The notes beneath the pieces are model-generated. The model was not told the origin of the DNA. It made no database searches and saw only the letters and a program-made list of their open reading frames with translations. Made by a program: the position numbers and the translations under genes. This document shows positions 24,564 through 28,354 of a stretch of 64,000 bases of DNA, piece by piece. How positions within the stretch are numbered: the stretch's first letter is position 1; the number at the start of each line of letters is the position of its first letter. The stretch is taken from NCBI GenBank assembly GCA_903884535.1, contig CAISEZ010000068.1, positions 1-64,000 on the forward strand. Direction: 5' to 3'. Source of the stretch: an uncultured Verrucomicrobia subdivision 3 bacterium. GTDB taxonomy: Bacteria; Verrucomicrobiota; Verrucomicrobiia; Limisphaerales; UBA11358.

Positions 24564-27484
24564 TCACGGCTTCACCGTGACGTGGTCGAACAGCGTGGAG
24601 TTCAGCACGGAATTGTTGTGCGCGGTGAGCGCGAGGCCGATGGAAAGATTTTTGTTCAGCGCATTGGTCACGCTGCCGGCCGCCAGCCAGTTCGTTCCGT
24701 CGGCGGAGACGTAGCCATTGAAAAAATTCCCGCTGCGCGCGAGTTTGACCCAGTGCGGGAGCTTCGCCTCCGGGCCGTCGGCGCTGGCGCTGGCACTATC
24801 TGCCGCCGGCCGTGATTGCAGCACCGAGCCGCCCTGCCCGGTCAGCGCGAGGAAAACATATCTGGCACCGGCGGAATCATTCTCGCGCAACATCACGCCG
24901 GCCTTGCACCAAGGATCGGTGTATTGCACGGAGACGACGCGCGCCACGATGCTGCCATCGCCATTCAACGAACGGCTCGCGAAGTGAAACGCGTCGGAGG
25001 TCTCCCAAATGTCGCTGCCTGAGGCAAGCAGATTGAATCCACCGTTGAGAAAACTGGCTTCGCCAGAGACACCGACGTTTCCGATGTCGGTGCCCATCCA
25101 GCCTTTCGGCAACGTCGGCACATTGACGTGCTGCGCGGCAATCCATTTGCCGATGACGGCCACGGCTTTGTCGTCCACCACATTTTTGCCGAGCGGCGGC
25201 ATCTGGTTTTCGCCCACGCGGCTGACACGATAAAACAAAATGGATTTGTTCGTGTCGCCGGGAACGATGACTTTGGCGCCAGCAATGTTCAACTGGTTGG
25301 CAACCGGGCCGTTGATGAGATTTTGTTTTTTGAGCGGCGTTTCAAAGCGCGCATCAAAAAACGCGCCGGCGCCGCCGGGGCGATGGCACATGGAGCAATT
25401 GGCGTCGAGATACGAGCGGACGCGGATCTGCGGCGCGGCGGCGGCGTTGTTGATGTTGAACAGGCGCGGGTAATGGAAAATTTTCCGGTCATCGAAGGCG
25501 GCGTCGAACAATCCGAGATGGCCGAGCGCGTGAAGCTGGTTGGCGGTGACACCGTTTGGGTATTTGAAGCTGCCGTTGAGCTGGCGGGTGTTCACGCCGA
25601 GCACGCCGCCGGTCGCGGGCGTGTGGCAGGTGAGACAATCCTGCCGGCCGGGATAAAACCAGTTTTGCGTGCGCGTGCCGGTCGCGGTCTTGATTTCAAT
25701 TGGCTCGGAGACGCCGATGGTGACGAGGTCGGCATCGGAATTATCCGCGCGCCATTTATAGCTCGCGCCATAAACGTAGCCGTTGGTATCGCGCACCAGA
25801 AGGCGCGTCTCGAGGCGACGCAGGATTTGCGGGTTCGTGTCGTCCACCGGCAAATCAAAATGCTTCACGAAGACCGCACCGGCAGGAAAGGTCCATTCGC
25901 CGTTCGCGGCAAAGCCGATGACGGAATTCGTCGGCAGCGTGAACCAGCGGGTTTTCACCGCGCCATCGGACCACAGCGGCGAATTGACGGCATACGGAAT
26001 GAGAAAATTCGCCGGTTGTAAATTCGTGAGTTCGGCGAAAACGCCGGTCTGCGAAATCAGCTTGGGCATCACGCGCGCCGGCGGGGGCGGACCGCCGCGT
26101 TGCAGCTTGAAAATACGCCCGCCGATGCTGCTCATCTGGCAGAAATAAAGTTCGCCAGCCGAGTCCGTGCCGAACGACGAGAGGCCGGTGTAATCCGTGC
26201 CGGCGTTCGGCCCGGTGCCTTTGGGCATGACGCAGAGCAGCGTCTTCTTCACCGGCGTCGCCGTCTCGTCGAGCGCCCAAATCGTGCGGAAAACATTGTC
26301 GCCGAAAATATATTTCCCGCCGAGATCATGCGCGAATTCCTTGCCGCGATAAACATAGCCGCCGATGACCGCGCGGCCGTCGGTGTGTGGATAATCCAGC
26401 AGCGGCCCGCGGCTAGTGCTGATGAACGGCGGCACCATCTTGCCGAGATTGCCCTCGCAGCGGTTCCATTGGAAATTCAAACCCGATTCGCCCGGCTCAA
26501 TCACGTCAATTTCCTCGCGCGAACTTTCGCCGACGTCGCCGATGAAAATTTTCCCGCTCGGCGGATCGTAGGTCATGCGATGCGGACTGCGCAGACCGAG
26601 GCAGAAGAATTCTTCCAGCACGTTCGATTGGCCGACGAACGGATTGTCGTTCGGCACAAAATAATTCGCCGTGAAGCCGCCGGTCGGCTGGCGCGGTGGC
26701 GCATGGCTCACATCGCCGCCGCGGCAATCCACATCCGCACGAAACACGCCTGAATAAAGGCTTTTGTTGATGAGCTGGTCGTTGTCGCCGACCGAATTGT
26801 CACCGTCGGTCCAATAAAGAAATCCATTCACCGGATGAAAAAACATTCCGCCGCCGTGATGCCAGACGGTCTGATTGGTGAGGTCCACGAAGATTTTCAC
26901 CGAGTCGGGAATCGCCACGCCATTGGCGTCGAGCGTGTAACGTTCCAGCCGATCATGGTAGGTGTCCGGCAGATTGGGAACCGGCCGCGTCGTCGGCGAA
27001 CCGGCGACCGTGCCGGGTTTGACCCAGGTGTAATAGACAAAAATAAAATGATTCGTCGCAAAGCCCGGATGAAACGCGATTCCTAGCAGCCCGGAATCAT
27101 CCCAGCCTTGGCATTGGTTACTAATGTCCAGGACAAGTTTTTTCGCGGCCGCGCCGGGGGCGTTTTGAAACGACCAGAGACGGCCTTCGCGTTCCCAGAC
27201 GCACAGTTCGTCCGTGCCGGGAATGGACATGAGGCCAACGCTGTTGGTAAAGAGCAGATTCGTGAACGCATTGACGCTGACCAGTTGCCGGAAATGCTCG
27301 GAGCGATTTCGGGCATCACGCCGTTGAGAAACGCTCCGATGCACGGACGGTTGGTAAGGCCAAACGATTTTTCGGGAACCACGGGCTTGGCACCGGCGGA
27401 CAAAAAGATACTGCCCAGCAAAACGAGGGACAGCAGCCATTGGCGATTTTGGTGAATCAACTTAATCACACCGGAACAGCGCAT
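24564..27484 (-). pseudogene. Glucose/sorbosone dehydrogenase-cytochrome-DUF1349 fusion, frameshifted
   Basis: A large secreted oxidoreductase in two frames. ATG 27484 (GGAG lies 6 bases upstream) opens a signal peptide and the block PEKSFGLTNRPCIGAFLNG, but this frame runs off at about 27290. The rest, starting AFTNLLFTNSVGL, is in another frame down to 24564. Crossover is near 27270-27290, and one missing base would explain it. Domains in order: a sugar dehydrogenase beta propeller (LLGIAFHPGF, GGGMFFHPVNGFLYWTDGD, GDVGESSREEIDVI), a cytochrome-like region with CLTCH and CSMCH haem motifs, and a C-terminal DUF1349/laminin-like sandwich. It is otherwise intact, so a recent mutation or sequencing error is likely. 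Confidence 0.8.
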
Positions 27485-27556
27485 AAGATTCTCCGTCATG
27501 CGTTCGCCGTCAATTTTTTAAGCAAAAATTCGGAATGATTGAAACAGCGCAACGGG

Positions 27557-27584
27557 TTTCCGCTTTCCGCTTTCCGCTTTCCGC
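27557..27584. repeat. Heptad repeat, four exact TTTCCGC units
   Basis: Four identical 7-nt units TTTCCGC sit in tandem 15 bases upstream of hisA. No inverted partner arm was found nearby. Confidence 0.9.
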
Positions 27585-27598
27585 TTTAACTTGAGCCA

Positions 27599-28354
27599 AT
27601 GTTTCGTCCCTGCATTGACCTGCACGAAGGCAAAGTGAAGCAAATCGTCGGCGGCACGCTCGGCGACGCCGGCTTGCGCACGAATTTTGTGTCCGAGAAA
27701 TCCGCCGCCTGGTTCGCCGAACTCTACAAACGCGACGGACTTTTCGGCGGACACGTCATTCAACTTGGTTCCGGCAATGAAACCGAAGCACGAGCCGCGC
27801 TCACGGCCTTTCCCGGCGGCCTACATATTGGTGGCGGCGTGAATGCGACCAATGCGCGCGGCTGGCTCGATGCCGGCGCCTCGCACGTCATCGTGACGAG
27901 CTGGGTGTTCCGCGAAGGCCGCGTGGATTGGACGCGGCTCGAAGAACTCGTGAAAACCATCGGAAGAGAAAAGCTGGTTCTCGATTTGAGCTGCCGCAAG
28001 CGCGGCGACGATTATTTCGTTGTCACCGACCGCTGGCAGAAATTCACGGAACTGGCCGTGAACGTGGAGACTTTGGAAAAATTTTCCGAATTCTGCGCGG
28101 AATTTTTAGTCCACGCCGTGGACGTGGAAGGTTTGTGCCGGGGCATTGACGGCGAACTTGTGGAAAAACTGGGCCAGTGGTCGCCGATCCCAATGACTTA
28201 CGCCGGCGGCGCGAATTCGCTGGCGGACTTGGAAGCCGTGACAAAACTCGGCGGCGGGAAAGTGGATTTGACCATCGGCTCCGCGCTGGACCTTTTCGGT
28301 GGCAGCGGCGTGAGTTACGCGGACTGTGTAAAATTCAACCGCCGCCAGAAATAA
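27599..28354 (+). CDS. hisA: HisA-type isomerase of the eukaryotic (HIS6/HISN3) kind
   Basis: Phosphoribosylformimino-AICAR-phosphate isomerase, the fourth step of histidine synthesis, a TIM barrel of 251 residues. The motifs are those of yeast HIS6 and plant HISN3, not the usual bacterial HisA: FRPCIDLHEGKVKQIVGGTL, NFVS, GGHVIQLG, GASHVIVTSWVF, LVLDLSCRKRG, HAVDVEGLCRGID and VDLTIGSALDLFGG. Catalytic Asp candidates are D7 (CIDLH) and D129 (LVLDLSC). A TTTCCGC repeat lies upstream, and the 3' end forms part of a hairpin terminator. No other his gene is adjacent. Transfer from a eukaryote or an old paralogue is inferred. Confidence 0.93.
   Translation: MFRPCIDLHEGKVKQIVGGTLGDAGLRTNFVSEKSAAWFAELYKRDGLFGGHVIQLGSGNETEARAALTAFPGGLHIGGGVNATNARGWLDAGASHVIVTSWVFREGRVDWTRLEELVKTIGREKLVLDLSCRKRGDDYFVVTDRWQKFTELAVNVETLEKFSEFCAEFLVHAVDVEGLCRGIDGELVEKLGQWSPIPMTYAGGANSLADLEAVTKLGGGKVDLTIGSALDLFGGSGVSYADCVKFNRRQK

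Follow-up and report, generated by a model that had tools for sequence, protein, structure and literature searches.

A solitary HIS6/HISN3-type hisA as the probable working HisA of an uncultured Verrucomicrobia subdivision 3 bacterium

Introduction

Why would a bacterium carry, apart from any other histidine gene, a HisA that resembles the enzyme of yeast and plants more than that of ordinary bacteria? The question is raised by a gene in a 64,000-nucleotide stretch of DNA (contig CAISEZ010000068.1; hereafter the window) from an uncultured Verrucomicrobia subdivision 3 bacterium. A first-pass annotation, made from the sequence alone, had proposed either a transfer from a eukaryote or an ancient paralogue kept in this lineage. 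We found no paper in the open literature that treats the corresponding subfamily, hisA_euk (TIGR02129), in bacteria, Verrucomicrobia included. TIGR02129 is a curated family whose description mentions yeast, Arabidopsis and Fibrobacter succinogenes.

Results

Identity of the gene

The window gene (Table 1) matched the hisA_euk profile (NCBIfam TIGR02129) with 377 bits (E 4.9e-113) against a curated cut-off of 229.3 bits, and the alignment, from positions 3-255 of the 255-position model to residues 2-248 of the 251-aa protein, indicates a full-length member. The ordinary HisA profile (TIGR00007) gave 70.6 bits, below its cut-off of 228.95, so that the initial impression of motifs matching yeast and plant HisA rather than ordinary bacterial HisA holds at the level of whole-family profiles. 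A sequence search of the PDB returned only two strong matches, Medicago truncatula HISN3 (283 bits, E 1.9e-83) and yeast His6 (239 bits, E 5.4e-70), and the third match was a HisF at 39 bits. Pairwise identity was ~55% to the Medicago protein, ~50% to the yeast protein and ~21% to E. coli HisA, while the nearest bacterial proteins were 70-89% identical. An AlphaFold model of the product, built from bacterial relatives only and leaving out plasmid and phage rows, reached a pLDDT of 89.9 and matched structures 9fcg (Z 40.4) and 2agk (Z 34.4) versus ordinary HisA and HisF structures at Z 27.6 and lower. The gene is a further member of a known subfamily, and an ordinary one for its order.

Table 1 Features of the hisA locus in the window
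Feature	Position	Strand	Basis or remark
Gene for 958 aa protein	24564..27440	-	Glucose/sorbosone dehydrogenase domain, weak cytochrome c matches
Intergenic region between divergent glucose/sorbosone dehydrogenase-like gene and hisA	27441..27598	.	Sequence
Four head-to-tail CCGCTTT heptamers	27560..27587		Repeat count; end 11 bases before hisA start
hisA, eukaryotic-type subfamily (TIGR02129), ProFAR isomerase	27599..28354	+	251 aa, ATG to stop, complete ORF
Codon of Asp7	27617..27619	+	Counterpart of catalytic Asp7 (E. coli/Salmonella HisA) and Medicago Asp57
Codons Asp129-Leu130-Ser131	27983..27991	+	Alignment
Codons His172 to Glu177	28112..28129	+	Alignment
Terminator-like hairpin over hisA stop codon/last codons	28338..28367	-	12-pair stem, pattern match only

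The only hisA found, in a scattered pathway

The assembled genome comprises 3.9 Mb on 165 contigs and is 93.6% complete. When it was searched with PF00977 for a normal hisA, a check that the first-pass annotation had suggested, two strong matches were obtained, namely the window gene and a gene on contig C94 that is hisF (TIGR00735, 361 bits), and no ordinary hisA was found besides the window gene. Five other pathway genes were located on as many contigs: hisD (C50, an intact ORF of 430 aa), hisB (C49), hisH (C70), hisI (C80) and hisG (C108); hisE was not recovered with an E. coli query. The flanking ORFs of the window hisA hold no his gene, in agreement with its description as solitary, and its isolation follows from the dispersal of the pathway genes over the genome. 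A PriA-like dual HisA-TrpF function was also considered and set aside as unneeded, since the genome has its own separate trpF and therefore requires no double duty from the window's HisA.

Distribution of the two HisA types

We found hisA_euk in 108 of 111 good genomes of the same order (completeness at least 90%, contamination at most 5%) and, in the close set, in all 25 good genomes. In a draw of 289 Verrucomicrobiota genomes, 124 carried hisA_euk (above the TIGR02129 cut-off), 147 the ordinary type (139 above the TIGR00007 cut-off plus 8 at 165-225 bits that were counted as ordinary HisA), 18 neither and none both; the hypergeometric figure for this mutual exclusion is 1e-62, a value that ignores kinship. 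Reading both searches together, hisA_euk was the only type in 13 families and ordinary HisA the only type in 42, with both types present in three families (f3, f5 and f11) and mixed genera limited to two (g3 and g17). This pattern suggests that the types mostly track descent, with some exchanges. hisA_euk thus replaces ordinary HisA and is not an extra paralogue. The proposal of an ancient paralogue survives in one half, in that the gene is an old and very divergent form of HisA, but not in the other, as no normal hisA is kept alongside it. Vertical descent through all Verrucomicrobia, which had been named as an observation that would speak against the original reading, is seen for the order but not for the phylum. 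As the subfamily is standard across the whole order, the gene is unremarkable in its host and was not acquired recently from a eukaryote. None of 14 well-known control genomes attained the hisA_euk cut-off.

Several further occurrences were recorded. Outside the phylum, a plasmid search returned a single record, from Paenibacillus cellulosilyticus (54% identity), where a solitary hisA_euk lies on a 509 kb plasmid (L146, 5995-6753). A phage search gave one short faecal record and a viral-contig search two contigs. An unverified 'Bacteriophage sp.' record (L147) has hisA_euk beside apparent rarA and penicillin-binding protein genes, while a contig from IMG/VR (L182) has it beside groEL; the DNA of both looks cellular. 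A scan of genome contigs for relatives returned close relatives alone. Genome G157 of the phylum (L203) holds two tandem copies ~1.9 kb apart that share 251 of 253 residues, and genome G205 (L204) a truncated 82-residue copy (about 1753-1998) upstream of the full one.

Locus context and selection

Ordinary hisA loci of the phylum were adjoined by hisF or hisH in 29 of 30 cases (equal flanks), versus 2 of 189 hisA_euk loci near another his gene, although many of the 189 were taken with wider flanks and some are the same gene fetched twice. The two exceptions (L073 and L075) come from MAGs of the same phylum with 74-75% identical proteins and show hisD-hisB-hisH-hisA on one strand, with hisA in L075 starting 2-3 bases after hisH, an arrangement that ties the hisA_euk type to the histidine pathway. 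In many relatives the neighbourhood of the window gene is kept, with panB-rfaE1-thiG-hisA on one side and hisA-DUF6370-Uma2-KH-trmD-rplS on the other. Several of the more distantly related members of the order have thiG directly next to hisA. In this genus the two are separated by the gene for the 958 aa protein, which is absent from several such distant members.

Comparison of the window hisA with ten relatives yielded dN/dS values of 0.08-0.14, showing that the gene is under purifying selection. A recent foreign origin was also considered from composition and rejected, the G+C content of hisA (58.5%) being that of its neighbours (57.4% for the window). The intergenic region upstream presumably holds the predicted hisA promoter; a sigma-70-like site sought on its + strand was not found. 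Just before the gene, L040 has three CCGCTTT heptamers in the same place as the four of the window, and other relatives have degenerate CTTT repeats in 7-base phase. The hairpin over the end of hisA resembles, as a pattern match only, a terminator for the convergent - strand gene.

Active-site residues and predicted function

To compare residues we used an alignment of 192 subfamily sequences, yeast and Medicago among them, and 31 further sequences. Asp7 was kept in 99% of the 192, and the Asn found in this column of the Medicago chain is the engineered D57N named in the titles of 9fcf and 9fcg. Asp129, Ser131, His172 and Glu177 were present in all 192 sequences, and this set extended by Tyr201, Ser228 and Asp231 was present in 98-100%, yeast and Medicago included. 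The catalytic residues Asp129 and Asp176 of E. coli HisA are absent from the window protein: the column of E. coli Asp129, invariant in ordinary HisA, holds Ser131 in the subfamily, which has its own invariant Asp129 two residues earlier, and the columns of Thr171 and Asp176, also invariant in ordinary HisA, hold His172 and Glu177. Salmonella HisA was crystallised with ProFAR as a D7N/D176A variant (title of 5a5w), from which we infer that Asp7 and Glu177 form the acid/base pair of the subfamily.

The enzyme would be a (beta/alpha)8 barrel that carries out the fourth step in the synthesis of histidine, an Amadori rearrangement that turns ProFAR into PrFAR, and its product would then pass to HisF-HisH. 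As judged from the alignment, Asp7 would be retained as one catalytic acid/base and Glu177 most likely plays the second part, taken by Asp176 in Salmonella HisA, while Asp129/Ser131 and His172 may reshape the remaining pocket. We put at about 0.92 the probability of the joint reading that the gene is the working HisA (5'-ProFAR isomerase) of this bacterium, a solitary HIS6/HISN3-subfamily form in place of ordinary HisA with an activity predicted from sequence, and that in this order hisA_euk is the usual HisA, passed on by vertical descent.

Position of the eukaryotic sequences

In a tree rooted on ordinary HisA and containing two eukaryotic hisA_euk sequences (yeast and Medicago), a branch with 100/100 support parted the two HisA types, and the placement inside ordinary bacterial HisA that the first-pass annotation had named as contrary evidence was not seen. 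The window gene grouped with its own genus (100/95) and then with its own order, which as one clade had modest support (76/72 in one tree, 78/36 in another), and it did not join the eukaryotic sequences to the exclusion of its bacterial relatives. The yeast sequence grouped with families f2, f3, f5 and f23 (96/91) and the Medicago sequence with L185 and L209 (95/88). Constraining yeast and Medicago into one clade cost 52.7 log units and was rejected (AU p=0.0024). Joining the window's order to Medicago (p=0.026) or to yeast (p=0.008) was also disfavoured by AU tests, in which the groups were picked once the tree was known, the yeast sequence forms a long row and the eukaryotic sequences are two.

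The subfamily may have a long history in bacteria, with the eukaryotic copies derived from it. We tentatively propose, at somewhat short of even odds, that the HIS6/HISN3 subfamily arose in bacteria, that its greatest known diversity lies in Verrucomicrobiota and their relatives, where it has repeatedly swapped with ordinary HisA, and that fungi and plants received HisA from bacteria of this kind on two or more independent occasions. Of the other plant enzymes of the pathway, HISN2 has been assigned a position near Deltaproteobacteria (PMC8102479), and horizontal transfer is regarded as the source of both HISN2 and HISN6 (PMC10978614); a non-cyanobacterial source of HISN3 would fit that pattern.

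An old transfer in the opposite direction, from an early eukaryote into the ancestor of many bacteria, after which the gene spread from one bacterium to another, would suit the dominance of the ordinary type in the 14 control genomes, which leaves hisA_euk patchy in the prokaryotes sampled. We consider it unlikely, as the two eukaryotic sequences occupy two separate and shallow places within bacteria and do not form one clade (a weak test with two sequences), whereas a single eukaryotic source would require bacteria nested inside eukaryotes. Acquisition of the gene by this particular lineage from fungi, plants or other eukaryotes is very improbable: the similarity in the PDB is highest to Medicago and yeast and the family was named from eukaryotes, but the gene is present order-wide in a conserved neighbourhood, many bacterial families carry hisA_euk, the nearest bacterial proteins exceed the 50-55% identity of the eukaryotic ones, and the AU tests disfavour both groupings of the order with a eukaryote. 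Transfer from a eukaryote, the first of the two original proposals, is not supported, and a recent arrival in this lineage from plants or fungi does not fit. That the gene is an additional paralogue of altered function, beside a normal hisA missed by the assembly, is scarcely credible, since the incompleteness of the genome and some active-site positions unlike ordinary HisA stand against the lack of any genome with both types, the shared catalytic Asp7 and the two MAGs in which hisA_euk directly follows hisD-hisB-hisH.

Discussion

The reading of the gene as the normal HisA of its order corrects the picture given by the name 'eukaryotic-type HisA', which, with two eukaryotic sequences behind that judgement, seems a poor label for a subfamily found mainly in bacteria. 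This form is common in the phylum, where it stands in cleanly for ordinary HisA and never accompanies it, so that one pathway step is served by two very different enzyme forms, one in operons and one solitary. The distribution also bears on the source of this enzyme in fungi and plants, and inhibitors of plant or fungal HisA could also be active against many Verrucomicrobiota of gut and freshwater. Two results merit further study: the mutual exclusion of the two HisA forms and the separate placement of the eukaryotic sequences.

Among known systems, the closest is the hisA_euk family itself (yeast HIS6, plant HISN3), with which the window protein shares its full length, all subfamily-specific invariant residues and the fold (Z 34-40); it differs from the yeast and Medicago enzymes in being bacterial, at 50-55% identity, and encoded by a solitary gene in a conserved bacterial neighbourhood. 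With ordinary HisA (TIGR00007; E. coli, Salmonella) it has in common the TIM barrel, Asp7, the GGG and GG phosphate-site motifs, an invariant Trp146 and a structural match of Z 27.6, but it is only ~21% identical, scores under the family cut-off and lies outside any hisH-hisA-hisF cluster. The dual HisA-TrpF enzyme of Actinobacteria (PriA/HisAp) belongs to the same barrel family (Z about 26-27), but its profile TIGR01919 gave just 26 bits against a cut-off of 306. HisF (TIGR00735) is a paralogous barrel (Z about 25-27), but its profile gave 22 bits versus a cut-off of 294.6, and the hisF of this genome is a separate gene.
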